Source: Sulfitobacter sp. DFL-14
GTDB lineage: Bacteria > Pseudomonadota > Alphaproteobacteria > Rhodobacterales > Rhodobacteraceae
Reading direction: 5' to 3'
NCBI RefSeq assembly: GCF_003335585.1
Contig: NZ_QBFD01000015.1
Span: 320,304 to 384,303 of the forward strand
Length of the DNA stretch: 64,000 nt
The translations under genes and the position numbers were made by a program. Shown one piece after another: positions 5,772 through 22,802 of this stretch; the stretch's first letter is position 1; each line of letters starts with the position of its first letter. The notes under the pieces were generated by a model. The model made no database searches, had not been told where the DNA came from, and worked only from the letters and a program-made list of their open reading frames with translations.

Positions 5772-5772
5772 C

Positions 5773-6543
5773 ATGCCATCCGTCGATCTGAACGCCGACA
5801 TGGGCGAAAGCTATGGTGCCTGGAAGATGGGTGACGATGCGGCCCTGCTGGATATCGTCACTTCTGCCAATATCGCCTGTGGCGGTCATGCCGGGGACGC
5901 CGATGTGATGGCCGCGACCATGCGCATTGCTCATGACAACGGGGTCGGCATCGGCGCGCATCCGGGGTTCATGGACATCGCCGGGTTTGGCCGCAACCGC
6001 ATGTCGGTGCCGCGCGCCACCTTGCAGAACCAGATCCGCTACCAGGTTGCCGCAAGTGTCGGCATGGCCCGCAGCCTGGGCGCTGAAGTTCGCCATCTCA
6101 AGCTGCATGGCGCCCTGGCCAACATGGCCTCGGAAGATGAAGGTCTCGCCCGCGATCTTTACGAAGCGGCGTTGAGCGTGGCCCCAGAGCTGATCGTCAT
6201 GGTGCTGTCTGCCACGGCGCAACAGAGCGCGGCAGAGGCGCTTGGCTGCGCCTGGGCCGGAGAGATTTTCGCGGATCGCGCCTACAACGACAACGCCACT
6301 CTGGTGGATCGTTCCCTGCCCGGTGCCGTGATCCACGATGCGGCCCTCGCAGGCAAACGGATGGTCGAGATGGTGCGCGCAGGGGCGATCATCACGGAAA
6401 GCGGCAAGCACATCCAGACGCGGATCGACACGATCTGCCTGCACGGCGATACCGCCGAGGCGGTTCAGATCGCCGCCGCTGTCCGGTCAGAGCTGGAAGC
6501 CGCAGGCATATCCCTGGCGCAGTTCAAGGGGCAAAGAGCTTAA
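5773..6543 (+). CDS. pxpA: 5-oxoprolinase subunit A (PxpA, LamB/YcsF family)
   Basis: A 256-residue protein starting at the ATG at 5773; GAGGGAA lies about ten bases upstream. The LamB/YcsF hallmarks are plain: VDLNADMGESYG at the N-terminus, SANIACGGHAGD, GAHPGFMD, and HLKLHGALANMA. In the family this subunit carries the catalytic site for ATP-dependent opening of 5-oxoproline. Its stop codon overlaps, tail to tail, the stop of the permease/beta-propeller gene on the other strand (shared bases 6540-6543), so no terminator separates the convergent units. Confidence 0.93.
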   Translation: MPSVDLNADMGESYGAWKMGDDAALLDIVTSANIACGGHAGDADVMAATMRIAHDNGVGIGAHPGFMDIAGFGRNRMSVPRATLQNQIRYQVAASVGMARSLGAEVRHLKLHGALANMASEDEGLARDLYEAALSVAPELIVMVLSATAQQSAAEALGCAWAGEIFADRAYNDNATLVDRSLPGAVIHDAALAGKRMVEMVRAGAIITESGKHIQTRIDTICLHGDTAEAVQIAAAVRSELEAAGISLAQFKGQRA

Positions 6544-9500
6544 CCGTTGCCGGCGGTGCGGCTGATCCGATAGATATTACCTGCGTCAAGCTGGCCTTCG
6601 ATGGTGGTTTCAGTGCCATCTGCCCAGCGCAGCGACAGCTTTGTCGCGCGGCCAGTTTCACCCAACCCGAAATGCACGCGCGGCGCATCGAAAGACATGA
6701 AGCCGCCGCCCATCTGCACCTCGCGCATCTGGGTCAGCCCGTTTGCATCCGTCAGGCGCAGCACGGCACCGATGCCGTCACGGTTGCCCGCCATATCCGC
6801 CAGTTCGAACACGATGCCCGGGGTCTGGCTGTTGTTGCGGAAAACGACCAGCGGGCCGTTGACGGGGTGGGTCAGCAGGTCAAGATCGCCGTCGTTGTCC
6901 ATGTCGAACTGGGTCGCGGCGGCTGTCATCAGGTAATCTTCCAGCCCGAAGGTCCCGGAGGCTTCCTTGAAGGTGCCGTTCCCCTGATTGTGGAAAAACA
7001 AGTTGGACGGTGACACTTCGTTGGGCACCCAGGTGCCGTTCACGATGTATACGTCCTGCCAGCCGTCATTGTCGAAATCAAAGATCTTGGTGTCCCAGCT
7101 CCAGCCGCCGACATCAAGGCCAACCTCTGCAGCCTGATCGGAATAGGCATTTTCCCCCCAGGACAGCAGCACGTTGGACCGCAGGATTTGCGGGTGGGTC
7201 AGGGCGATTTCCTCCGGCTTTGGCTGACGCACCGGCATGAAATGAGCATCGCAATAGGCGCGGGGAATGGTCTGCCCCACGGGGATCAGGGTGCAAATGC
7301 CGGGGTCTTCCTTCTGGATCGCCAGGTCCTTGACCAGCATGGCGCGGCATTCGTCCTTGTAACGTCCTTCCAGCTCCTGGCACCGGCTGGCGTAGGTCGG
7401 GTCAAAGTTGTTGCCGGACTTGTACCAGGTCTTGATCTCCATGTTCCTGGCGCAGGTGGCCTTGGCCTGTGGATCGGCGATGCCGTCGCAATATTGGTCC
7501 AGCGACTGCATCTTGAGCTTTCTGGACACGCCCGACGACCGGCCCGCGATCTGCGCAAGATAGATCTCCGGTGTGCCGTCGTTGGACAGGTCCGCCGTCT
7601 TTACCGCCATGGTTGTCGTGGTTGTATGCGGGATCAGCCCCGAGGCGTGGTCGATCATCGACAGCCCGCCAGCGCCGTCACCGCGATAGAAATAATCCGG
7701 GATGTCGAAATCGTTTCCGACCACCAGATCGGCGGCCCCATCACTGTCAAGATCGGTCCACAGGATGCTCAGCGTTTCGCCGGGCAATCCCGGAAGATCG
7801 GTAAATTGCTGTCCCGAAAGCGCGCCGTCATCGTTCCAGATCACCCGGTTGCGCGATTCCTCTCCCGGAATGCGGCGATACCAGCCAGCGGCCCAGTTCC
7901 CAAGTGCAACATCAAGATCGCCATCGCGGTCCGCATCGGCAAAGCTGAGCGAGAGAGCCAGTATATCTGTGTCCCGGCCCTGCACCGGGCGCAGGCTGTC
8001 CGTGCTGAACTGCCCATCTACATTCCGCCAGATGTAATTGCCCTGACGGTAAGTGCCGAGGAAGAGATCAAGCCAGCCATCATTGTCGATATCCACCAGA
8101 GCCGACTGAAACACAGCCATATCGGCCAGCGGCCCCATGTCGATCTTCTGCCGTGTGAACTGTCCTTGCCCGTCATTCAGGTAAAGGTACAACCCCACCT
8201 CGGTGGAGGCGATGGCGAGGTCAAGGTCACCGTCACGGTCAATATCCCCCGAAGAAACCGACCGGCCTTCCCAGAACGGCGGCCACATGTCGCGAAAGGA
8301 AAACTCGACAGGTTTGTCGATGCCAATCGTGCTCGCCTCCATCCGGGTGAAACCTGTCTCGGCGGAGTTCGAAAGCGGTGCTAGCGGCTGGGCAGCCAAT
8401 GTGATCCGGTCCGCATCCTCGCTGGTGACTTGCCAGGGATCGGTCCCCGCTGCCTCCGCAGCCATAAAGAGCGGCGCGTTGACCGGAGCGGCATTGCCCT
8501 GCAACAGAATGTCCAGGGCTCGATCCGATTGCCTGTCATAATAGATTTGCGCGCCAAGACCGGCGATGATCCCCAGCACGCCGACCGCGGCGGCCAGCAA
8601 ACCAGCCGCCCGCAACCCGATGGCCTGCCAGACGATAAAGAAGGAATAGACCGAAAAGGTGCCCAGCGTGAACAACAGCCCCATCACGTATCCATGTGAC
8701 AGCCCCGCGCTCAGCAATGCCCCCGTGACTACGACGTCAAAGGCGATCGGCACCGGCAGGAACAACCCGACCAGCGCAATGGCGATCAGGGCCAGAACCG
8801 AAAAGGACAGACCGGTAATTATGTCCTGCGGCAGCAACACGGCGGCCACCGTCCCCAGGAAACCGGCCAGCAGCATCAGGGGAACGGTCAGCTTTAGGAT
8901 GTACCACAGGTTCTGCAGATACTCCTTGGCCACATTGACCACCGCCCCCACCGGGCTGTTGCCCAGCCGCTTTCCCGCCATCAGTCCGCCACCGGGGCTC
9001 ATCGCGCAAACGACCTCGTCCTGCGGCAGTTCATTCCGTGCCAAAGTGCGGCAGATCAACGGCACGATGACCAGGATCACCACAAGGCTCAACGCGATCT
9101 TTGCCACCGCCATGAAGAACGGCAGGATCGAAAACGCCATCGTCAGCACCACAACGTTGAGCGTCGGTGATGCGATCATCGCGGAGAGGGTGGTTTCCGC
9201 CCGCAGACCCGCAGAATACATGCCCTTTGCAATCGGGGCGGCACAGTTCACACAAACGCCCAGTGGCGCGCCGATCACCATGCCCAGAAATGAATTGGCA
9301 AACCCGCCCTTGAAGCTGCGCCGTCGCAGATAGGGGATCATCGTCAGGAAGGCCGCGGCAAACAGGACGCCAAAGGTCATGCCCTTCTTGTTGGTGTTGA
9401 TCCAGTTCAGCGTGGACCAGAAAATCCGTTGGGGCAGGGTCATATCCGCCGTGATCGGGAACTTGGCCTCGAAACTCAGTGAATCTTCAAGCTGGATTGC

Positions 9501-9638
9501 ACCCGACATCATCGCCTTTTCGTCCAGCGCCGGATAGCGCGATCCGGTCCAGAACAGGTAGGCAAGAACGGCAACAATCAGAACACTCAGGACAAGTCGT
9601 AGAGTGTGGGGGCCTGTCGGCGCGGATGCATCTGTCAT
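6540..9638 (-). CDS. ArsP/DUF318-like permease fused to FG-GAP (VCBS) beta-propeller with UnbV/ASPIC C-terminus
   Basis: About 1032 residues. The N-terminal 400 contain nine or ten hydrophobic segments and the sequence GAPLGVCVNCAAPIAKGMYS, followed by ASPTLNVVVLTM; this resembles the cysteine-containing core of ArsP_1/DUF318 permeases, with C-V-N-C in place of the usual C-S-C-G. The next 550 residues hold at least six D-x-D-x-D-G-x-x-D calcium loops (for example DIDRDGDLDLAI, DIDNDGWLDLFLG, DADRDGDLDVALG, DLDSDGAADLVVG, DFDNDGWQDVYIV, DMDNDGDLDLLTH), typical of integrin-like FG-GAP propellers. A segment with six cysteines is inserted before the last two loops. The C-terminus (NRDGIGAVLRL, later RVHFGLGE and LRWADG) is an ASPIC/UnbV domain. 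An upstream TTG at 9674 with GAGG is an alternative start. Probably co-transcribed with the sulfotransferase and glycosyltransferase; function unknown. Confidence 0.85.
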   Translation of the reverse strand: MTDASAPTGPHTLRLVLSVLIVAVLAYLFWTGSRYPALDEKAMMSGAIQLEDSLSFEAKFPITADMTLPQRIFWSTLNWINTNKKGMTFGVLFAAAFLTMIPYLRRRSFKGGFANSFLGMVIGAPLGVCVNCAAPIAKGMYSAGLRAETTLSAMIASPTLNVVVLTMAFSILPFFMAVAKIALSLVVILVIVPLICRTLARNELPQDEVVCAMSPGGGLMAGKRLGNSPVGAVVNVAKEYLQNLWYILKLTVPLMLLAGFLGTVAAVLLPQDIITGLSFSVLALIAIALVGLFLPVPIAFDVVVTGALLSAGLSHGYVMGLLFTLGTFSVYSFFIVWQAIGLRAAGLLAAAVGVLGIIAGLGAQIYYDRQSDRALDILLQGNAAPVNAPLFMAAEAAGTDPWQVTSEDADRITLAAQPLAPLSNSAETGFTRMEASTIGIDKPVEFSFRDMWPPFWEGRSVSSGDIDRDGDLDLAIASTEVGLYLYLNDGQGQFTRQKIDMGPLADMAVFQSALVDIDNDGWLDLFLGTYRQGNYIWRNVDGQFSTDSLRPVQGRDTDILALSLSFADADRDGDLDVALGNWAAGWYRRIPGEESRNRVIWNDDGALSGQQFTDLPGLPGETLSILWTDLDSDGAADLVVGNDFDIPDYFYRGDGAGGLSMIDHASGLIPHTTTTTMAVKTADLSNDGTPEIYLAQIAGRSSGVSRKLKMQSLDQYCDGIADPQAKATCARNMEIKTWYKSGNNFDPTYASRCQELEGRYKDECRAMLVKDLAIQKEDPGICTLIPVGQTIPRAYCDAHFMPVRQPKPEEIALTHPQILRSNVLLSWGENAYSDQAAEVGLDVGGWSWDTKIFDFDNDGWQDVYIVNGTWVPNEVSPSNLFFHNQGNGTFKEASGTFGLEDYLMTAAATQFDMDNDGDLDLLTHPVNGPLVVFRNNSQTPGIVFELADMAGNRDGIGAVLRLTDANGLTQMREVQMGGGFMSFDAPRVHFGLGETGRATKLSLRWADGTETTIEGQLDAGNIYRISRTAGNG

Positions 9639-9680
9639 TGTGAAACTCAATTTTAAAAAATCCAATGTGCGCAAGATACC

Positions 9681-10550
9681 TCAATCTTGCGAAATCGCCA
9701 AACCCAATTGAAAGTCCGCCACCGCCTGCCGCAGATCGGTGGGAATTACCGACAGATCATTGGTGCCAGCACGTCCGATGGTGGTCGGACGTACCAGATC
9801 CGGGGGCGGTATCGAACCCGCCTTGCCGCCGGACAGCGCCTTGATCAGATGCCAGTAGCGCATCGGGTCGGTGCAGAAATCCTCGTATCGGATGACCATG
9901 AAGCGGCCCTGCATCCGTGTCTGGCCATAGGTCAACGCGCGGCGGTTCGCAGCCAGCCAGTAGCGCAGCTGGAGTACGGGCAGCGGCACATCGGGGTCAG
10001 GCGGAAGGCCAAGGATATGACCCCAGTTCTGCGCCTGCCAGGTGTTGCCGCTGAAAGCCATATCCAGCCCGTCCCGGACAATGTGGATGTAGCGAAAATC
10101 CGGCAGCAGCTGATCCAGGTATGGCAGGAAGACATGCGTGTTCGGTTCTTTCCATCCCCACGGCCCGCCCATGGCGACCGGCGATCCACCGCTTTGCAGC
10201 AGGTTCCGGGCCTGCGCGATCTTGGCCCCGCTGTCCCATGTCCCGTCTGGCAGCAGGTCCTGTTGCAGCATCTCGATCAGCGCCTGATCCGGCCCCGACA
10301 ATCCTGCAGCAAGCCCAAGTGTCATCGCCTGCCGGAACAGCCTGATCGCGGTCACGATCTGCGACACGTGCGGCGGTTTGTCCGTCCAGTCGCGACGTTT
10401 GAAAAGGACAGTGAACCACAGATTGTCCAACGGACCGTTCAGATCCTCGCCGATAAACACACCTGCCTGCCGCAACATTGCGGCGACGACCCGGGTGCCG
10501 CTGCCGCCCAGCCCCCCGATTGCCGTGATGGGTGCGGTCGGGACGTTCAT
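9681..10550 (-). CDS. Sulfotransferase family protein
   Basis: A 289-residue protein. The N-terminal GGLGGSGTRVVAAML is a PAPS-type P-loop (5-prime phosphosulfate loop), and the central YIHIVRDGLDMAFSGN supplies the R-D/S 3-prime phosphate-binding motif of sulfotransferases. No signal peptide, so it acts in the cytosol. Its start overlaps the stop of the upstream glycosyltransferase by four bases, and the permease/beta-propeller gene follows within about 40 bases. That context suggests sulfation of a glycan or surface protein; the acceptor is not identifiable. Confidence 0.82.
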   Translation of the reverse strand: MNVPTAPITAIGGLGGSGTRVVAAMLRQAGVFIGEDLNGPLDNLWFTVLFKRRDWTDKPPHVSQIVTAIRLFRQAMTLGLAAGLSGPDQALIEMLQQDLLPDGTWDSGAKIAQARNLLQSGGSPVAMGGPWGWKEPNTHVFLPYLDQLLPDFRYIHIVRDGLDMAFSGNTWQAQNWGHILGLPPDPDVPLPVLQLRYWLAANRRALTYGQTRMQGRFMVIRYEDFCTDPMRYWHLIKALSGGKAGSIPPPDLVRPTTIGRAGTNDLSVIPTDLRQAVADFQLGLAISQD

Positions 10551-11437
10551 TTAAGAAACGGCATCGCTGCGGCGGGCATACCCCCGACATAGATCGGGTT
10601 TGGTACCGGCACGGGGACAAAGCGTGCGCCGCGCAGGTCTGTGTATTCCTCGTGAAAAGCCTGCAACGGATGCTGCCTGGGCGGTGAATTGGTTGCGATC
10701 CCGCCGTGCACCTGGTGAAAGACGCCTTCACCCAGCAGTTTGACCGGCACGACACCGGGCTGTTGCAGCACCCGGTTTCGGAAGTCATGGTTACAGAACC
10801 CGCCCCCCGGTGACTGGAACGCGGGATCGAAGCCGCCCATGTCCAGGAACCTGTCCCGGGAAAGGGCGATCCAGCTGCATTCCACCGGGAAATCGCCAAA
10901 GAAACCGGTGCCGGACGAGGGTGCTATCGTGGATATGTCAAACAGGCGATACCCGTCCCCGCGCCAGGCTGCCTGTTCCAGCAAGGCGTCTTCGACCGTT
11001 TGATTGTACCCCTCCTGCGTCGATTTGGGCTGCACATCCGGCCCCAGATGCCACGACAGCGCACAGACAACCGCCTCAGGATATGCGGTGAAAGCCGACA
11101 GGGTGTGATGCAAGATACCGGGTGTTGCCATGCGTGCGCCATCCACGATGAGTGCCAGCACCTCTCCCTTGGCCATCTGCGCACCCAGGTTGATCGCATC
11201 AACGGGGGACTTGCTGGCTGTTTTGTGGAAATGATATTGAAACTGCGGCCCGAAGCGGGTCACGTCGGCCATGTCCAGCGGCGCGGAAGAGCCATTGTCA
11301 ATCACGATCACTTCGTAGTCGTCAGGCTTCACCCCGATCTGATGTGCAAGACTAAGGGAATACAGCGTGCGCGCCGCCTCCCGCCGCATGTTGTGCATGA
11401 TCACGACAACGGACAGTTTCATGGGGGAAAGGTTCAT
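10547..11437 (-). CDS. Glycosyltransferase family 2 protein
   Basis: A 296-residue GT-A enzyme. It opens with KLSVVVIMHNMRREAARTLYSL and has YEVIVIDNGSS (nucleotide-sugar binding), followed by VLALIVDGARMA where D-G replaces the usual D-x-D metal motif. The later WIALSRDRFLDMGGFDPAF is the acceptor-side region of GT2 enzymes. The ATG at 11437 is used; a second ATG six codons on is possible. First gene of the operon glycosyltransferase, sulfotransferase, permease/propeller. Likely sugar addition to a surface polymer; donor and acceptor unknown. Confidence 0.85.
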   Translation of the reverse strand: MNLSPMKLSVVVIMHNMRREAARTLYSLSLAHQIGVKPDDYEVIVIDNGSSAPLDMADVTRFGPQFQYHFHKTASKSPVDAINLGAQMAKGEVLALIVDGARMATPGILHHTLSAFTAYPEAVVCALSWHLGPDVQPKSTQEGYNQTVEDALLEQAAWRGDGYRLFDISTIAPSSGTGFFGDFPVECSWIALSRDRFLDMGGFDPAFQSPGGGFCNHDFRNRVLQQPGVVPVKLLGEGVFHQVHGGIATNSPPRQHPLQAFHEEYTDLRGARFVPVPVPNPIYVGGMPAAAMPFLK

Positions 11438-11571: not shown

Positions 11572-11605
11572 CCAACCGCCACCCCGTTGCCGGAGCGGCG
11601 GCTGG
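11572..11605 (-). terminator. Imperfect hairpin after the fibre-like gene
   Basis: CCAACCGCC (11572-11580) pairs with GGCGGCTGG (11597-11605) with one G-T pair and a 16-base loop. It lies just downstream of the minus-strand gene ending at 11631 and is followed on that strand by only three T residues (GTTTC). A weak intrinsic terminator is possible; the large loop lowers confidence. Confidence 0.3.
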
Positions 11606-11630: not shown

Positions 11631-12821
11631 TCAGTTGGCGCTTTTCAGCGTTTCGACTTCCGCTTTCAGCTCTGAAATCAGCGCCTGCTGCTCAAGCGTG
11701 TAGAGGGTCAGTTCTTCGACCTTCTCCAGCAACTTCAGCTGCATATCCACGACGTTGAAACGCAGTTCCGAATTGATCTTGTGCGCCGAAGGAACCCCCG
11801 GCAAGTGACCGTTTGCTTCGATGAACGCCTCGACTTCTGCCAGCGGCAAGAGCTTGTAATCCGGCTCGAAGACGTAATCCGGCACGTTCAGCGGTGTGCC
11901 GTTAACGATGATCTGGCCCGTGACGATGACAGCGTCGGAATTGGCATTGTCACCGATTTTCAGCAGGTTATTGTCCGCGCCTTCGTCCACCTTGATCGGT
12001 GTGTTGCCGCCGACCACACCGATGTTCAGACGCCCGGAATCCGCCTGCGCGCGGAATTCCCATGTCCCCGTGACCGCACCAGCGGTTTCCAGTGCAAAGG
12101 ACGCGTCATTGCCCCCGCCGTTGGCCTCGATCAAAAGGTTCGCAGGGCCGTTGGACCGTTTCACATGCAAAGATGCTTCGGGGTTTGTGCCGGCGCTCAT
12201 ACCTACGTTTTCGTTGCCGGCAATATGGATGGAGGATGATGCCGCGCCGGGCGCGATGCGGAAAGGCAATGTGCTCCCGTTGGTAGCGTCACGAATGAAA
12301 AAGCTCGTCTCGTTGCCGGCCACGTCCCATGTTTGCGCCGCAAACCCGCTGGATGTGTCCTGTTCAAGACGCAGGGTGGGCGTGTTTCCATTCCTGGCAT
12401 GCAGATCAGTAACAGGCGTCGCGGTTCCGAAACCGACCTTCCCGGAACTGTTCACAAAGATCGAGTTCGAACGCGCGCCGGACAAGATGGTGAAGGGCGT
12501 TCTGCCATTGTCGATTTCATCAACGGAAAACTTGTTGGCGCCGCCGCTGGTGGAATCGTTGAAAGTCAGTTGCCAGTCCACGCTCGGGAAAGTGCCAACT
12601 GACGTATCCATCGCTTTGATCCGCAGGTTGTTTTCCTTGAGCCGGATCGTGTCGGAACCGAAGGCCTCGCCGTTGGCACAATCGAACCCCACGCAAAGCG
12701 ACCGCGTAATGATCACGTCGTCGGCATGAACGACATCCGCCATCGCCATGCCGGATGTCAGCAACAGGGCACCCGCGGCCAGCGCGGTGCTACCCCTTAT
12801 TCTGGATGCGGTAATAGACAT
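11631..12821 (-). CDS. Secreted fibre-like protein with tail-spike-type C-terminal module
   Basis: A 396-residue exported protein. A Sec signal peptide (TALAAGALLLTSGMAMA, cleavage near residue 28) precedes a Gly/Asn/Ser/Thr-rich body built of repeated short strands such as SGKVGFGTATPVTDLHARNG and NVGMSAGTNPEASLHVKRSN, the G-I-G-T-x-x-P-x-x-x-L-x-V pattern of trimeric tail-fibre and adhesin shafts. The end (PDYVFEPDYKLLPLAEVEAF, then NGHLPGVPSA) followed by a Leu/Glu-rich coiled coil is the conserved module that caps many such proteins and resembles the region preceding S74-type intramolecular chaperones. AAGGGAA precedes the ATG. Being a folded-type fibre next to a type II secretion system, it is a good candidate substrate; that is inference. 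Confidence 0.75.
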   Translation of the reverse strand: MSITASRIRGSTALAAGALLLTSGMAMADVVHADDVIITRSLCVGFDCANGEAFGSDTIRLKENNLRIKAMDTSVGTFPSVDWQLTFNDSTSGGANKFSVDEIDNGRTPFTILSGARSNSIFVNSSGKVGFGTATPVTDLHARNGNTPTLRLEQDTSSGFAAQTWDVAGNETSFFIRDATNGSTLPFRIAPGAASSSIHIAGNENVGMSAGTNPEASLHVKRSNGPANLLIEANGGGNDASFALETAGAVTGTWEFRAQADSGRLNIGVVGGNTPIKVDEGADNNLLKIGDNANSDAVIVTGQIIVNGTPLNVPDYVFEPDYKLLPLAEVEAFIEANGHLPGVPSAHKINSELRFNVVDMQLKLLEKVEELTLYTLEQQALISELKAEVETLKSAN

Positions 12822-13127: not shown

Positions 13128-14315
13128 TCAGGGAATCACTTTGGCACGCGCCTGAGCCTCGTTTATCTGCGCCGCTGTCATCTGCTTGATGTAGCCATCG
13201 CTAATGTTTTTCGCCTCTTCCGCGCCCCCCGCCGCCGCCCGAAGGATCCACATCTGTGCAAGTACGAAGTCCTGCGGCACCCCTTTCCCCTGAAAATAAA
13301 GGCTGCCGAGATTGGCCATGGCTGGCGCATATCCGGCTTCAGCGGCCGCACGGAACAGGGCGGCGGCCTGGAATTGATTTTGAAACGGCGCATCGGGCGA
13401 TTGCAGCAACACCCAACCCAGTTGGAACATCGCAACCGGGTCCCCGCCGGAGGCCCGGGATTGCACATCTTTCAGCACCTGCTCGGACAGATCCAGTGGT
13501 TTGAGCCGCGCATCATAGATCAATGCAGATTGCTGTTCTGCGTCGGGTTCGGTCTGCCTTCCCCCGGCGCGGTACAGCGCCTTCGCCCGCTCTTCATCAA
13601 GCTCGACGCCATAACCATTCTCGTAAAGCACGCCCAGATTGGTCATCGCGGTTGGCAGCCCCAATTCGACTGCAGCGGTAAAATACTCTGCCGCGCGCGC
13701 ATAATCCTGCGGCACGCCGGTGCCCCGCACGTAAAGAAGCCCCAGATTGTTCAACGCACGCCCGTTGCCCTGCGCCGCAGGACCCTCGTAAAGCTCAAGC
13801 GCACGGAGATAATCCTGCTCGACCCCACGCCCTTCCTGGTAGAGAACACCAAGGCTGACAGCGGCATCATCTAGGCCAGCGTCGGTGGCCTGCTGATAAA
13901 GCTGTGCCACCCGGCTCATATCGTCTCCGACCACTTCCAAGGCGCGCGCCAGATCAAAGACATGCTGTGGATCACCAGATGCCGCAGCGCTCTCGAAAAG
14001 GCGCAAGGCCTCTTCGACATCCTTGTCGCCGCCCAGCCCCTCGAACCGGTAGCGCGCCAATTGGTTGCTGGCACCCGGATGCCCCTGTGCCGCAGCAAGC
14101 GCGAACCACCGCGCCGCCGCTGCATAATCCTCCGATGCGCCTTCGCCCGTATGGTAACGCATGCCCAGCGCGAATTGCGCGTCGGCCTGCCCGGCCTCTG
14201 CCGCCACTTCCAACTCGGCCAACGGTATTTCGTTCAGGGTCTGCGCCCAGACTTGCCCGCCTGAACAAACCAGTGCCAAGGCAAGGATCGCGTGAAGTAC
14301 CGGACGGAACGCCAT
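13128..14315 (-). CDS. Periplasmic Sel1-repeat (TPR-like) protein, downstream partner
   Basis: A 395-residue protein with a Sec signal peptide (AILALALVCSGGQVWAQ). It consists of Sel1-like repeats of about 36 residues with the A-x-x-x-L-G-x-x-Y-x-x-G-x-G-V-x-x-D-x-x-x-A pattern, for example ALNNLGLLYVRGTGVPQDYA and AMTNLGVLYENGYGVELDEE. A stretch at roughly residues 245-290 is less repetitive and may be a linker. The start codon shares one base with the stop of the upstream Sel1 gene (TGATG), so translation is coupled. Sel1 proteins usually scaffold complexes; position beside the type II secretion genes suggests a role with envelope assembly, which is inference. Confidence 0.83.
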   Translation of the reverse strand: MAFRPVLHAILALALVCSGGQVWAQTLNEIPLAELEVAAEAGQADAQFALGMRYHTGEGASEDYAAAARWFALAAAQGHPGASNQLARYRFEGLGGDKDVEEALRLFESAAASGDPQHVFDLARALEVVGDDMSRVAQLYQQATDAGLDDAAVSLGVLYQEGRGVEQDYLRALELYEGPAAQGNGRALNNLGLLYVRGTGVPQDYARAAEYFTAAVELGLPTAMTNLGVLYENGYGVELDEERAKALYRAGGRQTEPDAEQQSALIYDARLKPLDLSEQVLKDVQSRASGGDPVAMFQLGWVLLQSPDAPFQNQFQAAALFRAAAEAGYAPAMANLGSLYFQGKGVPQDFVLAQMWILRAAAGGAEEAKNISDGYIKQMTAAQINEAQARAKVIP

Positions 14316-15946
14316 CAGTCGCGCGCTGTCGGTTCGGAGGAACCAGGATCAGAGGTCCGGACCACCTGATCCGTCTGCGGGGCGCGCGCCCGCGCCGTGT
14401 CGAAATATGCACGGGCTTCGGCCTGTGCCTCTGCAATCTGATCCGGCGTCATCAGGTCACCGACAACCCCCCTTGTCTCTGCCGCTTCCGGGTGTCCACT
14501 GGCGGCCGCGATGTTCAGCCACTTGTGCGCTGCGACATAATCCAGATCGACCCCGTCACCGGTTACATACAGATTGCCCAGCTGAAACTGGGCCGGAACG
14601 CTTCCCGCCATTGCGGCGCGCTGGATCAGGTCGACGCCTTCAGCCTTCTTGCCTTCCTTTTGCAGATAGAATTCTCCCAGGTTGACCTGGGCGATCCGCA
14701 CCCCGGCATCCGCCTGGCCCAAGAGCCACGCCTCAGCCTCTGCATCGGCATTCTGGATCAGGTCGGTCATGACCCAGGGGACCGCCTGATGCGGCGACAT
14801 CAGACCGTCAAGCAGCCCGGCCTTGGCCATTTGCGAAATTGCCAGCGCGCCATTCAACTCACCCTGCTGTGCCGCCTTGTCATAAAGCGCCACGGCCTTG
14901 GCCAGGTCCTGTTCAGTTCCCGTACCGTTTGCATAAAGCTGCCCGAGCGCAAAGGTGGATCGGCCCAGGTTCAGGTCCGACGCCTGTTCGAACCACCTGA
15001 GCGCCTTGTTGTAATCCTGCGGCAACAAACCACCGCTGACATATCCGATACCGAGGTTGTGCATGGCCGACCGGTCGCCCGCCTCTGCCGCGGCGCCAAG
15101 CCAGCGCAGGGCCTCTGCCGCGTCTGGTGTCACACCATCTGCGCCGACAAGATACTTGGTACCCAGTTCGCGCTGCGCTTGCGGCTGTCCGTTCTCGGCG
15201 GCGCGACGAAACCAGTCCAGCGCCGCTTGCTTGTCCACGGGCACCCCGCCGCCATTGTCCAGCGCATTGGCCAGAAAATACTGTGCTTCAGGCAAACCGG
15301 CCCCGGCTGCTTCTTCCAGCCAGCGCAGCGCCTCCGGCGGGTTTGCTTCGGTGCCCTGCCCCCGGGAGTAGGCTTTGCTCAACTCGAATTGCGCGTGCAT
15401 GTTGCCGCCCTCGCTTGCCGCGAGAAACCAGTCAAAGGCACGGCCGACATCCTGTCCCACCCCTTTGCCGGACAGCAAAAGCAGCCCAAGGTAATATTGC
15501 GCCTCGTCATCGCCGCGTGTCGCGGCGTTCGACAATAGCTCCGCAGCGCGCTCCGCATTCCCTTCGCCCTTGCTGCTGAGCAAAACACGCGCCAGCAGCG
15601 TGGCGGCATCCGCATTGTTCTGCGCGACCGCTTTTTCAAGCCAGCCGACGGCGCCCTGCACGTCTCTCGGCCCGCCTGTGCCCTCCAGCAGAACCCGCCC
15701 ATAGCGGTATTGCGCGAGGGCTGTGCCCTCCTCCTCGGCCAGGGTCTTGAGCCCCCTGCGGACAAAGACGAAATCGCCGCGTTGCCATGCCTGTTCGACC
15801 TCTGTCATTGTCGCGGGCGCGGCTGCTTCATCTGTCGCGCTGTCGGATGTGGCGCTGCTGTCCTGCGCAGCCAATGGCACAGCCAGTCCCGCAAGCAAAA
15901 GGGTCACCGAAAGAAGGCGGGTTGCGGAATTCTGAAATGAAATCAT
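14315..15946 (-). CDS. Periplasmic Sel1-repeat (TPR-like) protein, upstream partner
   Basis: A 543-residue protein. The ATG at 15946 is chosen because it begins a signal peptide (SVTLLLAGLAVPLAAQ); the frame is open upstream for 25 codons without signal-like sequence. It holds about ten or eleven Sel1 repeats such as AQYYLGLLLLSGKGVGQDVG, AQYFLANALDNGGGVPVDKQ and AMHNLGIGYVSGGLLPQDYN, followed by a charged C-terminal tail ending in SEPTARD. Acts presumably in the periplasm as a protein-protein scaffold. It forms a two-gene unit with the shorter Sel1 gene; paralogy suggests duplication and specialisation. Confidence 0.83.
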   Translation of the reverse strand: MISFQNSATRLLSVTLLLAGLAVPLAAQDSSATSDSATDEAAAPATMTEVEQAWQRGDFVFVRRGLKTLAEEEGTALAQYRYGRVLLEGTGGPRDVQGAVGWLEKAVAQNNADAATLLARVLLSSKGEGNAERAAELLSNAATRGDDEAQYYLGLLLLSGKGVGQDVGRAFDWFLAASEGGNMHAQFELSKAYSRGQGTEANPPEALRWLEEAAGAGLPEAQYFLANALDNGGGVPVDKQAALDWFRRAAENGQPQAQRELGTKYLVGADGVTPDAAEALRWLGAAAEAGDRSAMHNLGIGYVSGGLLPQDYNKALRWFEQASDLNLGRSTFALGQLYANGTGTEQDLAKAVALYDKAAQQGELNGALAISQMAKAGLLDGLMSPHQAVPWVMTDLIQNADAEAEAWLLGQADAGVRIAQVNLGEFYLQKEGKKAEGVDLIQRAAMAGSVPAQFQLGNLYVTGDGVDLDYVAAHKWLNIAAASGHPEAAETRGVVGDLMTPDQIAEAQAEARAYFDTARARAPQTDQVVRTSDPGSSEPTARD

Positions 15947-16045
15947 ATGCTCGCTCGGATAAGGGGACAGGTGCCGCAGCAATGGTCCTGCAGGCGGAAT
16001 TTCTAAATGCACCGCGACCATACCCGGCGCGAACGTGAAGTCAAT

Positions 16046-16816
16046 TCACCAGGCCATGGGCGCCAGCTGCGGTCCGGTCAGCCAGAGCATCGCCGCAGCG
16101 GCACAGAGGGCAGCGCCAAATGGCAGGGGGCGGTCGGCAGCAAGCGATTGTCTGTTCACCAACCTCTGACCCAGCGCGACCACCAAGGCCATAACCGCTG
16201 CAAGCAGAACCAGAAGCGGCAGGTCGTATGGCCCACTAAAGGCCCCGAGCCCCACCATCAGCTTTACATCCCCCAGACCCAGCCCTTCGCGCCGCCGCAA
16301 CAGCCAATAGCCCCAGCGCAGCGCAGCGAAACTGCCCGCGCCCAGCGCCGCGCCCAGAGCGGCCTGTTCCAGACCCACACCCTGCGGTGCCAGCGCCATG
16401 GCAAAAGCCACCAGTGCCAGCGCCGCCGTCAGCGGATCGAACAGCCGAAACCAAATCAGGTCGGCTGTTGCCAGCGCCGCAAGAAGCCACAGGAAAGCCG
16501 CCGACAAGACAACCTCCGTTGCGCCACCGCCCCGCAGAACAGCCAGAATGCCCAGGCCAAGGCAGATCAGTTCAAGATAGAGCAGCCAGGACGGTATCAC
16601 GGCACCACAGTTTTTGCACCGCCCCCTCTGGATCAGAAACGACAGGATCGGGACCATCTGCCAAGCCTTGAGCGCCGTACCACAGCTGCGACACCCCGAT
16701 GCGCGCAGGACGGTATCCTCTCCGCGCGGCAGCCTGTCCACAAGCACGGCGAGGAAAGACCCGATTGCCGGCCCGAGCAGGATCACCAGCAATAGCAACG
16801 GCTGCGCCCCTGTCAT
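16046..16816 (-). CDS. gspO: Prepilin peptidase / N-methyltransferase (GspO, type IV prepilin peptidase family)
   Basis: A 256-residue membrane protein with about seven hydrophobic segments. The ATG at 16816 places the first helix (LLLLVILLGPAIGSFLAVLV) at the N-terminus as in the family; longer starts add no membrane sequence. Two C-x-x-C pairs (CRSC and CKNC, about residues 44-75) form the zinc-binding cytosolic loop. The catalytic aspartates sit in TADLIWFRLFDP and GLGLGDVKLMVGLG, the second being the G-x-G-D-x-K/F signature. It should cleave and methylate the GspG-K pseudopilins. It is divergent from gspG, leaving about 90 bases for back-to-back promoters. Confidence 0.92.
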   Translation of the reverse strand: MTGAQPLLLLVILLGPAIGSFLAVLVDRLPRGEDTVLRASGCRSCGTALKAWQMVPILSFLIQRGRCKNCGAVIPSWLLYLELICLGLGILAVLRGGGATEVVLSAAFLWLLAALATADLIWFRLFDPLTAALALVAFAMALAPQGVGLEQAALGAALGAGSFAALRWGYWLLRRREGLGLGDVKLMVGLGAFSGPYDLPLLVLLAAVMALVVALGQRLVNRQSLAADRPLPFGAALCAAAAMLWLTGPQLAPMAW

Positions 16817-16908
16817 CCGACCGGCCGTCCCTTCAAATTTTGCAACATCGCATAGACAATCATATCGCCCCCCTCCTATCATGCGCTGAATTGAAAAGGA
16901 CATATTTG

Positions 16909-17382
16909 ATGAAACGTGCTGCTTCGCGCAGAAACATTGACCGGGCAAGGACGCCATCCAGACGCGACGCAGGTTTTTCGCTGCTGGAACTTATGGTTGT
17001 GGTCGTCATCCTGTCAATTCTTGCTCTGGTGATTGTCCCCCGTGTCATTGACCGCCCCGATCAGGCCCGTGCCGCGCGTGCGCAATCGGATATCGCTGCA
17101 ATTTCCGGTGCGGTGAACCTCTACCGTCTGGACAATTTTCGCTATCCGACAACCGAACAGGGATTGGCCGCACTGGTGAACCCGCCAACCACCGATCCAC
17201 AGCCGCCGAACTGGGCAACAAATGGCTACATGGAACGGCTGCCCATCGACCCATGGGGCCAGCCCTATCAATACCTGCAACCGGGGGTCCACGGGGATTT
17301 CGACGTGTTCTCCTATGGTGCGGACGGGGTGTCAGGCGGCACCGGTCCGGATTCCGACATCGGATCATGGAACCAGAACTGA
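16909..17382 (+). CDS. gspG: Type II secretion major pseudopilin GspG
   Basis: A 157-residue pseudopilin. The ATG at 16909 has AAAAGGA eight bases upstream. A basic leader of 22 residues ends in glycine, followed by FSLLELMVVVVILSILALVI with the conserved glutamate at mature position 5. The C-terminal part has the GspG signatures YPTTEQGLAAL, DPWGQPYQY and the calcium-site region ending GPDSDIGSWNQN. It forms the shaft of the periplasmic pseudopilus. The leader is longer than the usual 6-8 residues. It overlaps gspH by 16 bases. Confidence 0.96.
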   Translation: MKRAASRRNIDRARTPSRRDAGFSLLELMVVVVILSILALVIVPRVIDRPDQARAARAQSDIAAISGAVNLYRLDNFRYPTTEQGLAALVNPPTTDPQPPNWATNGYMERLPIDPWGQPYQYLQPGVHGDFDVFSYGADGVSGGTGPDSDIGSWNQN

Positions 17383-17840
17383 AATCCAATCCTGCGCCCG
17401 ACCAGGGCTTTACCCTGATCGAATTGCTTGTTGTCATCTCGGTGCTTGCGGTGCTTTCGGTGGGGGCAACGCTGGCAGTATCCGGCCGCGGTACGGACAG
17501 CGCCGCATCGGACCGCGCCTGGTTCGAGGCACAGTTTCGCGCCCTTCAGGACCTTGCGATGCAGGGACGCAACAGCAAGGGTCTGAACATTACGCCAGAA
17601 GGCCTCGGCTTTGCCCGCAGAACGGACCAGGGCTGGGACATCGGCGACCCGGTCCGCCGCTGGCAAAGTGATGTGACCATCGCCAATCTTCAGCCGCGGC
17701 CGGGGCTGGATGAACCCCAGATCATCCTGCTGGCGAACGGGCAGACAACCGCCTTCAACATCCTGTTTTCAGGGAGCCGTGGCGCATCGCGAAGCTGCCA
17801 GAGCGACGGATGGACGGGGCTGAAATGCGGCGGCGATTGA
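17367..17840 (+). CDS. gspH: Type II secretion minor pseudopilin GspH
   Basis: A 157-residue protein starting within the end of gspG. Leader MEPELKSNPAPDQG is followed by FTLIELLVVISVLAVLSVGA with glutamate at mature position 5. The globular part (AQFRALQDLAMQGRNSKGLN, then EPQIILLANG) and the ending GWTGLKCGGD fit GspH-type minor pseudopilins. Cys near both RSCQSDGW and LKCGGD may form a disulfide. Part of the tightly overlapping gspG-K series. Confidence 0.85.
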   Translation: MEPELKSNPAPDQGFTLIELLVVISVLAVLSVGATLAVSGRGTDSAASDRAWFEAQFRALQDLAMQGRNSKGLNITPEGLGFARRTDQGWDIGDPVRRWQSDVTIANLQPRPGLDEPQIILLANGQTTAFNILFSGSRGASRSCQSDGWTGLKCGGD

Positions 17841-18196
17841 AGGGTGACAGGGGCCTGACCCTGATCGAACTGGCCGTCGCCGTGCTGGTCCTGGCAATCG
17901 GAAGCATCGCCGCCCTGCGCGCAGCCGATCAATCCCGGCTGGCCATCGGCGGTGCCGCTGACCGGCTGCTGGCGCAGATCGTGGCCCGGAACCGGGCCGA
18001 GGAACTGCGCCTGCTCCCACCCGAGGAACGCGCCGCCCTGCCAACAGAAATCACCATGGGAGGCCAGACGATCAGCCTGGCCACAACCACCAAGACGACC
18101 GCTGCCGGACTGGCCGAGACAACGGTGACGGCCCGGGCACAGCGCGGCGGCGGCGCGATTTTCGTGATCTACCTCCCGGTGGAGCCCGCATCATGA
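17810..18196 (+). CDS. gspI: Type II secretion minor pseudopilin GspI
   Basis: A 128-residue minor pseudopilin overlapping gspH by 31 bases and gspJ by four. Leader ends R-G, followed by LTLIELAVAVLVLAIGSIAA with glutamate at mature position 5. The region ARNRAEELRLLP corresponds to the GspI W/R-N-x-x-E motif. An ATG at 17825 (MRRRLK) gives a more usual leader and is equally plausible as the start; neither has a strong ribosome site. GspI nucleates the pseudopilus tip with GspJ and GspK. Confidence 0.85.
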   Translation: MDGAEMRRRLKGDRGLTLIELAVAVLVLAIGSIAALRAADQSRLAIGGAADRLLAQIVARNRAEELRLLPPEERAALPTEITMGGQTISLATTTKTTAAGLAETTVTARAQRGGGAIFVIYLPVEPAS

Positions 18197-18864
18197 CCGA
18201 TCAGCGCCGTGATACCGGGATGACCCTGATTGAACTTGTGGTGGCCATGGCGATCTTTGCACTGGTTGCCGTCATGGGGCTTCAGGGATTGACCGGCATG
18301 CTGCACATCCGGGACCGGTTGACAGAACTGGATGACAGCACCTCGGAGCTGTCACGCGCAGTCGCCCTGATGCGCAACGATCTGACAGCGATCATGCCGA
18401 TGCGGTTCTTTCCCCCGGACAGCCCGTCGGCAGAGGCAGTCGGGCAAAGCACCGATGGGCGCGTCTTTTCCCTTTCGGTTTCGGGGCAACCTGCCTTGGG
18501 CGCGCCGGAGTTGTCCGATCACCTGCAGCGCGTGGAATGGCGGCTGGCGCCCGAGGACGGCACGCTTTTCCGGCGCGTCTGGACAACACTCATCCCGGCA
18601 GACACCCAGGCCCTGCAGCCTGAAACCACAGTAATGGCCGGTGTCGAAGACCTGCGCATCCGCAGCTACTGGAGCGGCCTGGGCTGGATCGACGGGCCAA
18701 CCAATCCGGTGCTGCAGAACCGACCAGCCCCAAGCGCCGAAGAAGACGACGACCGGGTAGGCCCGGCTGCGGAAAACTACTCCGACTTCGTTCCGCTGGC
18801 GATCGAGGTTACGCTGGTCACCACAACATGGGGCGAGATCACCTTGATCGAGACACTGAAATGA
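18193..18864 (+). CDS. gspJ: Type II secretion minor pseudopilin GspJ
   Basis: A 223-residue protein starting in the gspI stop (ATGA). A short leader MTDQRRDTG precedes MTLIELVVAMAIFALVAVMG with glutamate at mature position 5. The size and features such as LQRVEWRLAPEDGTLFRRVW and DLRIRSYWSGLGWIDG fit GspJ. A variable insert (about residues 185-200, rich in Asp/Glu/Pro) precedes the end. Overlaps gspK by four bases. Confidence 0.87.
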   Translation: MTDQRRDTGMTLIELVVAMAIFALVAVMGLQGLTGMLHIRDRLTELDDSTSELSRAVALMRNDLTAIMPMRFFPPDSPSAEAVGQSTDGRVFSLSVSGQPALGAPELSDHLQRVEWRLAPEDGTLFRRVWTTLIPADTQALQPETTVMAGVEDLRIRSYWSGLGWIDGPTNPVLQNRPAPSAEEDDDRVGPAAENYSDFVPLAIEVTLVTTTWGEITLIETLK

Positions 18865-19775
18865 CCCGCCAGGCCGGTTTCGTGCTGGTGAACGCGCTGG
18901 TGATTGTTGCGGCCCTTGCCGGGGCGGCGGTGTTCCTGCTGACCCGGGCCGAAGGTGGTCGCGCGCGTTTGCAGGCCAGCCAGACCGCCGGGCAACTCAG
19001 CTATTATCTGGATGCCTTCGACGCGCTGGCGATCACCATGCTGAATGCCGACCTGATGACCAGCAATCATGATGATGCCAATGAAGCCTGGGCAAAGACC
19101 GACATCGCCGTTCCGCTGGACCGGGGCCGCGTCGCCGGCCGGATTCTGGATCAGCAGGCATTGTTCAACCTCAACTGGCTGAATGACCCGACCCATGAGG
19201 CGGCGCAGAGCGCCTTTGACAAGCTCTTGCAACGGGCCAGCCTGTCGCCCCGCGTCGGCGATCTGATCAGGGATTTCATTCAACCGGGCGGACCGGACAA
19301 CAAACGCGCCTATGCCGCGCTGACCCCGGCCCGCGCCCCGATTGGCGGTGCCCTGCTGATGTTTGACCAGATCAGCGAGATTCCCGGCCTCAGACCACAG
19401 GAAACAGACCGCCTGCGCGCCGTTGCGACTGCGCTGCCCGGCGGGCTTCCGGTGAACATCAACACCGCCTCCGTGGAGATGCTCGTGGACCTCATGCCGA
19501 CACTGCCGCCCAGCACATTGTACCAGATACTGAACACCCGCGACCGGACGCCTTTTCTGTCTGTCGATGGTTTCATCGACGCGCTGGAAGATCGCCTGGG
19601 CGAGCAGTTGCCGGAAGAATTTTCACCAGCACGCCTTACGGTGTCCTCGGAATGGTTCCGCACAGACATCGCTGCCGAACTGGACGGGCAGCAGGCAAGA
19701 CGCATGACATTGCTTTACCGTCTCAACCGCCAGAGCGGGACACATGTGCGCCTCCGGGTCAGCCAATTTGACTGA
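18861..19775 (+). CDS. gspK: Type II secretion pseudopilus tip protein GspK
   Basis: A 304-residue protein starting in the gspJ stop. The N-terminus MTRQAG then FVLVNALVIVAALAGAAVFL is a pseudopilin helix without glutamate at mature position 5, as in GspK. The large globular part contains FNLNWL, the GLRPQETDRLRA segment and LPVNINTASVEMLVDLMPTL, the helix-hairpin-helix-like SAM domain region typical of GspK. It caps the pseudopilus. A 75-base gap separates it from gspL. Confidence 0.92.
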   Translation: MTRQAGFVLVNALVIVAALAGAAVFLLTRAEGGRARLQASQTAGQLSYYLDAFDALAITMLNADLMTSNHDDANEAWAKTDIAVPLDRGRVAGRILDQQALFNLNWLNDPTHEAAQSAFDKLLQRASLSPRVGDLIRDFIQPGGPDNKRAYAALTPARAPIGGALLMFDQISEIPGLRPQETDRLRAVATALPGGLPVNINTASVEMLVDLMPTLPPSTLYQILNTRDRTPFLSVDGFIDALEDRLGEQLPEEFSPARLTVSSEWFRTDIAAELDGQQARRMTLLYRLNRQSGTHVRLRVSQFD

Positions 19776-19850: not shown

Positions 19851-21041
19851 GTGACCGAAGTGGCCACATATGACGCGGGCAAGGACTTTGTCGCGCTGAC
19901 CGGCGACGGCACCGCCCCCGGTGCCCAGCAGGTTGCGGTTGTCTGCGGCGCGGATGTTCCGGTCATCACTCTGGAGTTGCCGCCAGGCCTGCGCGGGCAG
20001 GCCCGCGAGCAGGTCGCCCGTCGCCAATTGCAGGACCGCGCAGGGCTGACGGCGGAAACCACCGAGATCAGGCCCATCTATCCTCCGAAGCAGAGCGAGA
20101 ATTGGTCGAAGGTCCTGATCGCGGACGCCGCCCTGTTGGCAGAGTGGAAGGCCATCGCCGGCCCCCATTGCCGCGCTGTTTTGCCCGACTACCTGACCTT
20201 GCCGACCGCCTCGGGCATCTGGTCGATGGCGATGCGGAACGACATGCTGATGGTGCGCCTTGGGCCTGACGAAGGGTTCACCGCGCAACCTGATCTGGCA
20301 ATGGTGATGCTGGAAATGCAACTTGATCAGGCCAGGGACCTCCTGCCCGGTGCCATATTATGCCTTGGCGCCGCACCGGACGGGCTGAAAGCACTTGCTG
20401 ACATCCACGATGTCCCACTCATCGCCTCCCCCGCCGACGCCAAGGGCCTGGGGCTGGAGGTGCCTGCCGTTCTCACCCATGGCGAGATTGAATTCGATCT
20501 GCGGCGCGACCCTCAGATGGCGCGGACCAAATTACGCAAACAGGTCCTGCCCTGGCGCTGGCCGCTGCTTTTCGCGCTGATTGCTGCAGGCCTGTGGTCT
20601 GCCTCTCAGGTCATCGAAACGCGGCGGATCGAAACCCGAACCGCCCAACTGAACACCCAGACCCGTGAATTGGTACGCGAGAAATTCATCCCGACGGGGC
20701 CGCTGCTGGACATGCGCATTCAGGTCAGCCAGGTGCTGGCCGAGCGTCAGCTGCGCGCAGCGGGCTGGCAGGACAAGATAACGGCGCTGGACCTTTTTGC
20801 GACAGCGGCCGGCGTTCTCAGCACCCGTGGCGTGGAAACCGATCAGGTCAGCACCGTATCCGCAACAGAGGTTGCTCTGGATGTGACAATGCCCGATTTC
20901 GCCAGCGTCGACCAACTTGCCAGCGACCTGCGCGCGGCGGGGCTGACGGTAACTGTCGTGCAATCGCGTGTCAGCGAAGGCTCCGCCGCCGTGCGCAGCG
21001 AAATCCGCCTGCGACCCCCTGAGACGGAGGCGGCAAAATGA
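19851..21041 (+). CDS. gspL: Type II secretion inner-membrane platform protein GspL
   Basis: A 396-residue bitopic protein read from a GTG with AGGATA upstream. The cytosolic half (residues 1-230) is the actin-like GspL domain that docks GspE; a single transmembrane helix lies near residues 238-257 (WPLLFALIAAGLWSASQVI); the periplasmic part ends with a ferredoxin-like fold region (LDVTMPDFASVDQLASDLRA). It overlaps gspM by four bases. Sequence conservation is low, so position and topology carry much of the call. Confidence 0.85.
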   Translation: MTEVATYDAGKDFVALTGDGTAPGAQQVAVVCGADVPVITLELPPGLRGQAREQVARRQLQDRAGLTAETTEIRPIYPPKQSENWSKVLIADAALLAEWKAIAGPHCRAVLPDYLTLPTASGIWSMAMRNDMLMVRLGPDEGFTAQPDLAMVMLEMQLDQARDLLPGAILCLGAAPDGLKALADIHDVPLIASPADAKGLGLEVPAVLTHGEIEFDLRRDPQMARTKLRKQVLPWRWPLLFALIAAGLWSASQVIETRRIETRTAQLNTQTRELVREKFIPTGPLLDMRIQVSQVLAERQLRAAGWQDKITALDLFATAAGVLSTRGVETDQVSTVSATEVALDVTMPDFASVDQLASDLRAAGLTVTVVQSRVSEGSAAVRSEIRLRPPETEAAK

Positions 21042-21532: not shown

Positions 21533-22051
21533 TTACCTCATCCCGCTGAGACGCGACTGGATGCTGGCCTTGCGACCAGCCAGGCTGCCCAGGGGGTCCA
21601 GATCAGGGTTGGTCGCCAGCACTTCGGTCAGCGCCGCCTCTGCCTGCTCAAGGTAGGATTTTCCGGCCTCCCTGTCGCCTTTTGCCAGCGCCCTGAGGCC
21701 AAGTTCATGCACCGCGGTGGCCTGCACAGACAGGGCTGCCGCACGTCCATCGCCATTTTGCGACTTCGCCAGCTTGCCCGCTTCCTGCGCGGCGGCATCG
21801 AAATCACCCGCGCGCAGATAGCCATGGGAAAGCTCCAGACGGATACGCGGCTCGAACCCGCCTGCATCGGGAACAAGACGTTTGTAGACGCGGTTCGCCT
21901 TGGCAAAATCGCCGCCTTCCAAGGCGTTTCGCGCAGTAGAATACTCTGTTTCAAAGGACTTTTGACCAAGGCTGCCGTTCTCGGCACAGCTTGAGATCAG
22001 AAGGGCGCACAGAACAATCGTCCCGGCCCGGGCGTGCGTGTATACCTGCAT
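21533..22051 (-). CDS. TPR-containing lipoprotein inside the gsp cluster (candidate secretin pilotin)
   Basis: A 172-residue protein with a lipoprotein signal ending ALLISSC, giving an acylated cysteine at residue 22. The mature part consists of TPR-like helical pairs (EYSTARNALEGGDFAKANRV, LELSHGYLRAGDFDAAAQEA, LGLRALAKGDREAGKSYLEQ). It lies convergent with gspM and divergent from gspC, splitting the secretion cluster. PilF/PilW/Tgl-type pilotins that pilot type IV pilus secretins are TPR lipoproteins, so by analogy this may guide GspD to the outer membrane; no GspS-like gene is otherwise present. The function is inference; the lipoprotein and TPR calls are seen directly. Confidence 0.8.
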   Translation of the reverse strand: MQVYTHARAGTIVLCALLISSCAENGSLGQKSFETEYSTARNALEGGDFAKANRVYKRLVPDAGGFEPRIRLELSHGYLRAGDFDAAAQEAGKLAKSQNGDGRAAALSVQATAVHELGLRALAKGDREAGKSYLEQAEAALTEVLATNPDLDPLGSLAGRKASIQSRLSGMR

Positions 22052-22151
22052 TTGCCTGCTCTTTATTTATTGGTTTATTAAGTTTACCTTTACCACAGGA
22101 CGGGATTTGCGTCTACAAATCCCGCCCCAAACGCGCAGGAGCGGTGCAACA

Positions 22152-22649: not shown

Positions 22650-22802
22650 CATAGCCGCGCGACCGATTGGCCACAGCCTGCGGGATTGCGCATGAAAGAC
22701 GTGCATCGCTGTCGATTATGCGCTAGGATTCAAGCCAATACATGGCAAATCCCCGAATGCGGTCATCAAGAACCTGCACCGGGCTTGAGGCAGAGAGCGG
22801 TC

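Follow-up and report, generated by a model that had tools for sequence, protein, structure and literature searches.

The 64,000-nucleotide window of Sulfitobacter sp. DFL-14 analyzed here (contig NZ_QBFD01000015.1, positions 320,304 to 384,303) encodes, at 6540–9674 on the minus strand, a protein in which an ArsP_1-like permease is fused to a calcium-loop β-propeller with an ASPIC/UnbV C-terminal domain. The parts of this protein belong to known families, and the whole is best explained as an accessory membrane component of a fibre locus linked to a type II secretion system (T2SS). We put the chances that it serves as the inner-membrane component of such a fibre module at about even, and it probably helps these marine bacteria to handle or display fibres. 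The strongest clue to its function is the genomic context, namely the T2SS and the fibre genes, which the initial annotation had missed. The fusion, hitherto unexplained, thereby gains a testable context, since in the sampled family it occurs one-to-one with a family of tail-fibre-like proteins and is confined to genomes that have a T2SS secretin. With somewhat less confidence, we suggest that these genes may constitute a surface-fibre system of marine Alphaproteobacteria that is coupled to the T2SS and has not been described before. In this system, tail-fibre-like proteins, which in some genomes form a dozen or more variable paralogues, would be assembled or displayed via the inner-membrane transporter–propeller fusion, a small secreted protein, and Sel1 proteins, and locus-specific sulfated glycans may decorate them. 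No description of the fusion or of the fibre module was found in those parts of the open-access literature that were searched, which did not cover preprints.

Co-occurrence of the fusion with fibre genes and the T2SS

The distribution of the fusion (family A1, counted at E-values up to 1e-30) was determined in 149 genomes from 148 genera of the family to which the window belongs. A full-length fusion is present in nine of them (G000, G423, G449, G481, G498, G514, G515, G542, and G549), including G514, whose copy has one stop and was kept; G424 was left out, its weak match covering profile positions 841–1022 only. The fibre family (A2) and a family of small proteins (A6) were each detected in exactly the same nine genomes. 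In four of these (G481, G515, G542, and G549) the fusion and fibre genes lie on different contigs, and the small protein adjoins the fusion. The secretin GspD scores above its cut-off in 21 of the 149 genomes, all nine fusion genomes among them. The chance values obtained, 3.8e-9 for nine genomes falling within the 21 with GspD and also 1.3e-14, hold for independent genomes, which these are not fully. Among 385 genomes sampled across the class, three carry the fusion, and two of these three also have the fibre.

Relatives of the fusion were collected as the best 80 of 235 stretches encoding one (a single scan of genome contigs), and together with the window locus they gave 81 loci whose open reading frames (ORFs) were clustered. 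The frequent gene order is a prepilin peptidase, two Sel1-repeat proteins, the small protein with a signal-peptide-like start, the fibre, variable sugar and sulfate enzymes, and the fusion. Profiles built from the same loci in which they were counted detected the small protein in 69, the fibre in 64, Sel1 in 63, the prepilin peptidase in 42, and GspG in 36 of the relatives' 80 loci. Within the fetched flanks, any of the Sel1, small-protein, and fibre genes is present in 74 loci, and all three in 52. Several Maricaulis loci have the fusion immediately after a secretin gene and a GspK-like gene (GspK recognized by eye). A fibre cluster is absent from 22 loci, for which 21 genomes were searched (19 with a full-length fusion, as well as those of L097 and L101); 16 of these have a fibre match elsewhere, consisting of fragments in L085. 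GspD exceeds its cut-off in 19 of 24 further genomes that carry the fusion or its propeller.

In a GspD tree (35 rows picked by homology, to which a long-branch warning applies), the nine fusion genomes of the family form a 100/100 clade together with three permease-less genomes and the fusion-less G458. Fourteen of the 15 rows from fusion-less genomes fall outside this clade; the 15 include two, those of G493 and G558, that score below the cut-off for GspD.

Relatives of the window's fibre protein match Peptidase_S74 and phage tail-fibre families, and the window copy itself has no PHROG match. The same genome contains three fibre arrays with five (L112, G000 C25:52000-71000), three (L113, C24:240000-256000), and five (L114, C29:318000-337000) paralogues. 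Within each array, all members lie on one strand and resemble each other in the C-terminal tail, with middle parts that vary. In a Roseovarius genome (L029), 26 fibre matches were obtained, some of which represent two pieces of one gene. Such arrays look like a variable surface-fibre repertoire.

Domain architecture and conservation

The fusion occupies a single stop-free frame of 1044 codons (open-frame check of the window). Its first 12 codons are uncertain: the TTG at 9674 has GAGG a few bases 5', and the ATG at 9638, from which conserved residues, insert cysteines, and loops are numbered below, has no clear ribosome site. Pfam matches comprise ArsP_1 (PF03773; 5.1e-14, residues 101–373, 52.6 bits vs. 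a curated cut-off of 32.3) and, likewise above their curated cut-offs, FG-GAP_3 (3.2e-34, six stretches, 117.7 bits), FG-GAP, and UnbV_ASPIC (1.5e-15, residues 967–1027, 57.2 bits). The initial annotation had read this frame as an ArsP_1 permease with C-V-N-C in its core, joined to an FG-GAP propeller with at least six D-x-D-x-D-G loops, a six-cysteine insert, and an ASPIC/UnbV end, all of which is borne out. The calcium-type loops (Dx[DNS]x[DNS]G) number seven and start at residues 465, 516, 568, 629, 683, 854, and 912; the propeller probably has seven blades. In the predicted model of the whole protein (mean pLDDT 83.7, pTM 0.68), the propeller and C-terminal domain superimpose on CRTAC1 (9etn) with a Z of 30.9 (447 residues, rmsd 2.5, 19% identity). 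The profile matches to integrins alpha-6, -4, and -V and the Foldseek integrin hits are all weaker than CRTAC1.

Among the 80 relatives, 76 match both the permease and the propeller in the same domain order, so that other proteins of this architecture do exist; one of the 76 (L088) ends at a contig edge, and two (L035 and L036) come from the same contig. The remaining four include three propeller-only forms (L099, L100, and L101, with matches starting at positions 413, 367, and 424 of the 1044-residue frame) and a truncated copy (L097, starting at 297). The statement that ArsP_1 permeases normally stand alone also holds: of the 29 matches listed in 21 genomes, 25 are in ORFs of 151–543 aa, and the only ones in ORFs longer than 1000 aa are four fusions. 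In an alignment of 42 sequences, i.e., the window protein and 41 relatives with 53–77% identity, residues C129, N131, C132, P295, P297, and D301 and six insert cysteines between positions 717 and 796 are identical in all members. The CxNC motif is thus found in all 42 fusions, and the full CVNC in 40.

The permease part was also modeled separately (pLDDT 84.8, pTM 0.85) and consists of an N-terminal helix and two six-element halves. In the first half, the cysteine pair coincides with the helix break, as does P295-P297 in the second half, and D301 is at the start of the helix that follows. The permease core (residues 112–171) shows the highest conservation of the stretches measured (mean 0.855, compared with 0.73–0.78 for the propeller), and hence the permease appears to be under selection and probably works. 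The C-S-C motif is a hallmark of the ArsP_1 family. In 18 distinct usable stand-alone ArsP_1 proteins, the first cysteine is common with the fusion, and the position of its CVNC is occupied by CSC in 14 and CSF in four; among these relatives, therefore, CSC is not universal. Scores against the NCBIfam models CuZnOut_SO0444 and SaoE (41.0 of 300 and 32.0 of 325 bits, respectively) are far under the equivalog cut-offs. No solved structure matched the permease model in Foldseek at an E-value of 0.001. In a second look at this model, elevator-type transporters lead (NaDC3, Z 11.5; ArsB, Z 9.7), a likeness that is suggestive only and perhaps reflects just a common arrangement of helical proteins.

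Several observations concern individual relatives. L035 and L036 are two copies of the locus located approximately 95 kb apart on one contig (JADFAE010000007.1) of a metagenome-assembled genome (MAG); their fusions match equally well, and the pair is either a duplication or an assembly repeat. L069 and L094 carry near-identical fusions (branches of 0.016 and 0) in MAGs named Robiginitomaculum and Amylibacter; probably one MAG name is wrong or the gene was recently transferred. The same may apply to L084 (named Nitrosomonas) and L087 (Granulosicoccaceae). A CRTAC1-like protein that stands alone (about 494 aa; G000 C29:342986-343528; L002/L115) is also encoded in the window's genome, and relatives of it occur in many fusion-less genomes of the genus.

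Permease-less lineages and alternative functions

The propeller of L099, L100, and L101 is preceded by a signal-peptide-like stretch (recognized by eye); this puts the propeller outside the cytoplasm and supports the extracytoplasmic location initially proposed. A permease encoded elsewhere in these three genomes was considered and rejected, since no separate homologue was found in them; in the L097 genome, the truncated copy (residues 296–409) is the only permease homologue found. In a propeller tree (quick method, midpoint root), L099 groups with L100, L101 belongs to a different clade, and both clades are placed among full fusions, a pattern suggestive of two permease losses. All three genomes keep GspD; the fibre is in the locus (cluster 3) in L099 and L100 and elsewhere in the genome in L101. 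As the two permease-less lineages retain propeller, fibre, and secretin, the propeller seems to represent the core function, as an essential partner of the fibre system, rather than a gate for transport; this retention is the strongest argument for such a partnership.

These lineages bear directly on the idea, favored in the initial annotation, that the propeller captures a ligand for the ArsP_1-like permease or gates uptake or efflux through it. Strong conservation of the permease core, with its six invariant residues, agrees with a protein that is a transporter first, as does the suggestive resemblance of the model to NaDC3 and ArsB. The idea is nevertheless weakened by the persistence of propeller, fibre, and GspD where the permease is gone, and no transport or metal-resistance family is present among the annotated recurrent neighbour clusters (part of all clusters), so that we regard it as unlikely.

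A role in maturation, with the permease importing or removing a thiol-reactive solute or a metal on behalf of the cysteine-containing fibre and propeller, is likewise a doubtful alternative. Cysteines are indeed prominent in the module: two are invariant in the 18 aligned fibre members (A2 positions 43 and 48) and six in the insert of the fusion, and the membrane motif is CxNC vs. CSC in most of the compared relatives. The substrate, however, is not readable from sequence, and the fibre is kept in the permease-less lineages.

The initial annotation also took the neighbouring enzymes as a hint of a sulfated glycan. We compared the ORFs that lie up to 3.5 kb upstream of the fusion and measure 170 aa or more (83 ORFs, 45 loci) with a downstream set (105 ORFs, 55 loci), the core-module clusters being left out of both. 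Upstream ORFs match Sulfotransfer_3 (16), Sulfotransfer_2 (12), and Sulfotransfer_1 (8), tallies that may overlap. Downstream, Sulfotransfer_2 has two matches among the 25 of 97 families listed, with single matches to other sulfotransferase families possible. A Fisher comparison, which is rough, took 28 upstream vs. 2 downstream distinct genes. Thus, the hint gains support from the upstream enrichment of sulfotransferases, yet the enzymes vary by locus and many loci show none. Because the sulfate and sugar enzymes are split into several clusters (17, 11, 16, and 32), decoration, which seems common, probably differs in its chemistry between strains. The same enrichment, together with the inclusion of a fungal lectin among calcium-blade propellers (PMC3123361), would suit a fusion that acts as a receptor or lectin for a sulfated glycan made by its neighbours. 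We consider this improbable, given that four sulfotransferase cluster profiles occur in 27 of the 80 loci, whereas the fibre is detected in 64 and the small protein in 69, although other sulfotransferase clusters were possibly missed. It is also unlikely that the full-length form, anchored as it is by a permease of the inner-membrane type, is the surface receptor initially proposed.

There is a slim chance that the propeller itself is a T2SS cargo or an adhesin and its fusion to the permease a derived, anchored form. Propeller-only forms that look secreted do exist, but in the midpoint-rooted tree they branch from within the fusions, and a form anchored by a permease should stay in the inner membrane. 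An assembly join or frameshift, in favor of which nothing was found, is rejected, as both parts lie in one frame and in the same order in 76 of the 80 relatives.

Proposed role and relation to known systems

For the fusion as an inner-membrane component of the fibre module, the following sequence of events can be envisaged. The permease would reside in the inner membrane with the calcium-loop propeller hanging in the periplasm, as expected from an anchor of the inner-membrane permease type. Fibre subunits would enter via Sec and then fold, and presumably trimerise, in the periplasm, where the propeller may bind them, perhaps along with the small protein and the Sel1 proteins, and pass the fibres to the T2SS for release or display. 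Calcium would serve a structural or regulatory purpose, as it does in PilY1. The permease, apparently intact and with a changed cysteine site, may move a small solute that is helpful but dispensable, since two lineages do without the permease. The sulfotransferases and glycosyltransferases probably make a decoration, the target of which could be the fibre or the cell surface.

A number of observations weigh against this interpretation. One of the three fusion genomes of the class-wide sample (G406, 77% complete) has no fibre match, and no fibre was detectable in five of the 21 searched genomes (L044, L048, L060, L078, and L097). GspD is not above its cut-off in five of the 24 further genomes (L048, L078, L084, L085, and L097). 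Accordingly, L048 and L078 combine a full-length fusion with neither fibre nor GspD, and with L097, the genome of the truncated copy, three genomes in all have neither. In addition, none of the 8 GspD rows from the 6 fusion-bearing genomes that do not belong to the family groups within the 100/100 clade, and some are placed in the other half of the tree; in Maricaulis maris, which has two GspDs, it is the fusion-adjacent one (G588 C8, on the contig of L072) that falls there. Since the non-family GspDs lie outside the clade, the module is, judging from this tree, not tied to a single T2SS lineage. Furthermore, with 19 of 60 residues invariant at 112–171, the permease core is too conserved for a mere anchor, and the assignment of an exact role (scaffold, chaperone, or modifier) is guesswork.

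Among known proteins, CRTAC1 (cartilage acidic protein 1) and the bacterial ASPIC/UnbV FG-GAP proteins share with the fusion a calcium-loop propeller followed by ASPIC/UnbV, whereas the solved CRTAC1 chain, with 551 residues, is too short to include a permease. The ArsP_1/DUF318 proteins, including CuZnOut_SO0444 and SaoE, share the membrane cysteine motif, the first cysteine being aligned, but the fusion has CVNC instead of CSC, and PIAFD in its second half. To our knowledge, no Gsp protein has the architecture of the fusion, although the window locus resembles T2SSs with dedicated accessory genes in having a nearly complete gsp set and a prepilin peptidase. By analogy, the nearest functional counterpart may be PilY1 of type IV pili, in which a calcium-blade propeller works with a pilin-type machine; in PMC3123361, PilY1 is listed among calcium blades for "regulation of pilus biogenesis and motility". 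The analogy is functional only: unlike PilY1, the fusion has a permease, a T2SS link, and no PilC/PilY1 Pfam match, Neisseria_PilC (PF05567) being absent from the seven families obtained at E-values up to 10, a range in which HMMER filters drop most very weak matches. If the proposed role is correct, a transporter with a calcium-blade propeller would be linked to T2SS cargo handling, much as PilY1 is to type IV pili, and roseobacters, which are abundant marine bacteria living on algae and particles, would possess an unrecognised repertoire of surface fibres.

Genomic context of the window locus

The features of the locus are collected in Table 1. The small protein is not encoded in the window, and the genome has a copy on another contig (C46). 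GspG probably starts downstream of its first ATG.

Table 1. Features of the fusion locus in the window
Feature	Position	Strand	Basis or remark
Permease–propeller fusion protein	6540..9674	-	1044 aa from TTG; 1032 aa from ATG at 9638
ASPIC/UnbV C-terminal domain	6594..6776	-	Pfam 1.5e-15
CRTAC1-type propeller, seven Dx[DNS]x[DNS]G loops	6819..8360	-	Loop motifs, structure comparison
Mostly helical insert with six invariant cysteines, in the gap between fifth and sixth loops	7203..7541	-	Alignment, model
ArsP_1-like permease domain, N-terminal helix and two six-element halves	8502..9608	-	Pfam, predicted model
C-V-N-C at the break of the permease first half	9243..9254	-	Alignment of 42 sequences
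Sulfotransferase, next gene upstream of the fusion	9681..10550	-	Pfam Sulfotransfer_3 1.5e-11
Family 2 glycosyltransferase	10547..11437	-	Pfam Glycos_transf_2 4.8e-8
Tail-fibre-like protein (fibre family, A2), signal-peptide-like start	11631..12821	-	Family co-occurs with the fusion
Sel1-repeat protein b	13128..14315	-	Pfam Sel1 8.3e-46
Sel1-repeat protein a	14315..16021	-	Pfam Sel1 4e-65
Prepilin peptidase (A24)	16046..16957	-	Pfam A24_N_bact 8.8e-23, Peptidase_A24 2.7e-14
T2SS pseudopilins GspG, H, I, J, K	16699..19775	+	NCBIfam: G, K above cut-off; H, I, J below
GspL	19851..21041	+	TIGR01709 above cut-off
GspM candidate, ORF of 163 aa	21038..21529	+	Position only
GspC, GspD, GspE, GspF	22038..27470	+	NCBIfam: D above cut-off; C, E, F below, yet best match

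Co-transcription of the fusion with its neighbours, as initially suggested, is plausible from gene spacing alone, the ORFs overlapping or abutting. Terminator-like sites were no more numerous than in shuffled sequences (promoter and terminator scan). Because a 15-pair stem is located at 11572–11605 on the minus strand, in the gap separating the fibre from the glycosyltransferase, transcription of the fibre may be separate from that of the subsequent genes.

Further proteins recur near the fusion. A giant protein of approximately 2500 aa occurs in eight loci (cluster 12; e.g., L025:11055-19021, the sole member scanned, which consists of DUF7933 repeats), and the 105 downstream ORFs include 12 RTX calcium-binding proteins and five phage tail-collar proteins, as if the locus were a collector of secreted proteins.

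Elsewhere in the window, a region at 29983–35328 encodes a Y-family polymerase-like (IMS) protein and a DNA polymerase III alpha-like protein and resembles an imuA-imuB-dnaE2 mutagenesis cassette; its first gene, which has no Pfam match, we take to be imuA. The region at 118–6543 encodes a TRAP transporter (DctP, DctQ, and DctM) and, further on, the 5-oxoprolinase PxpA (5722–6543), whose gene is convergent with that of the fusion.

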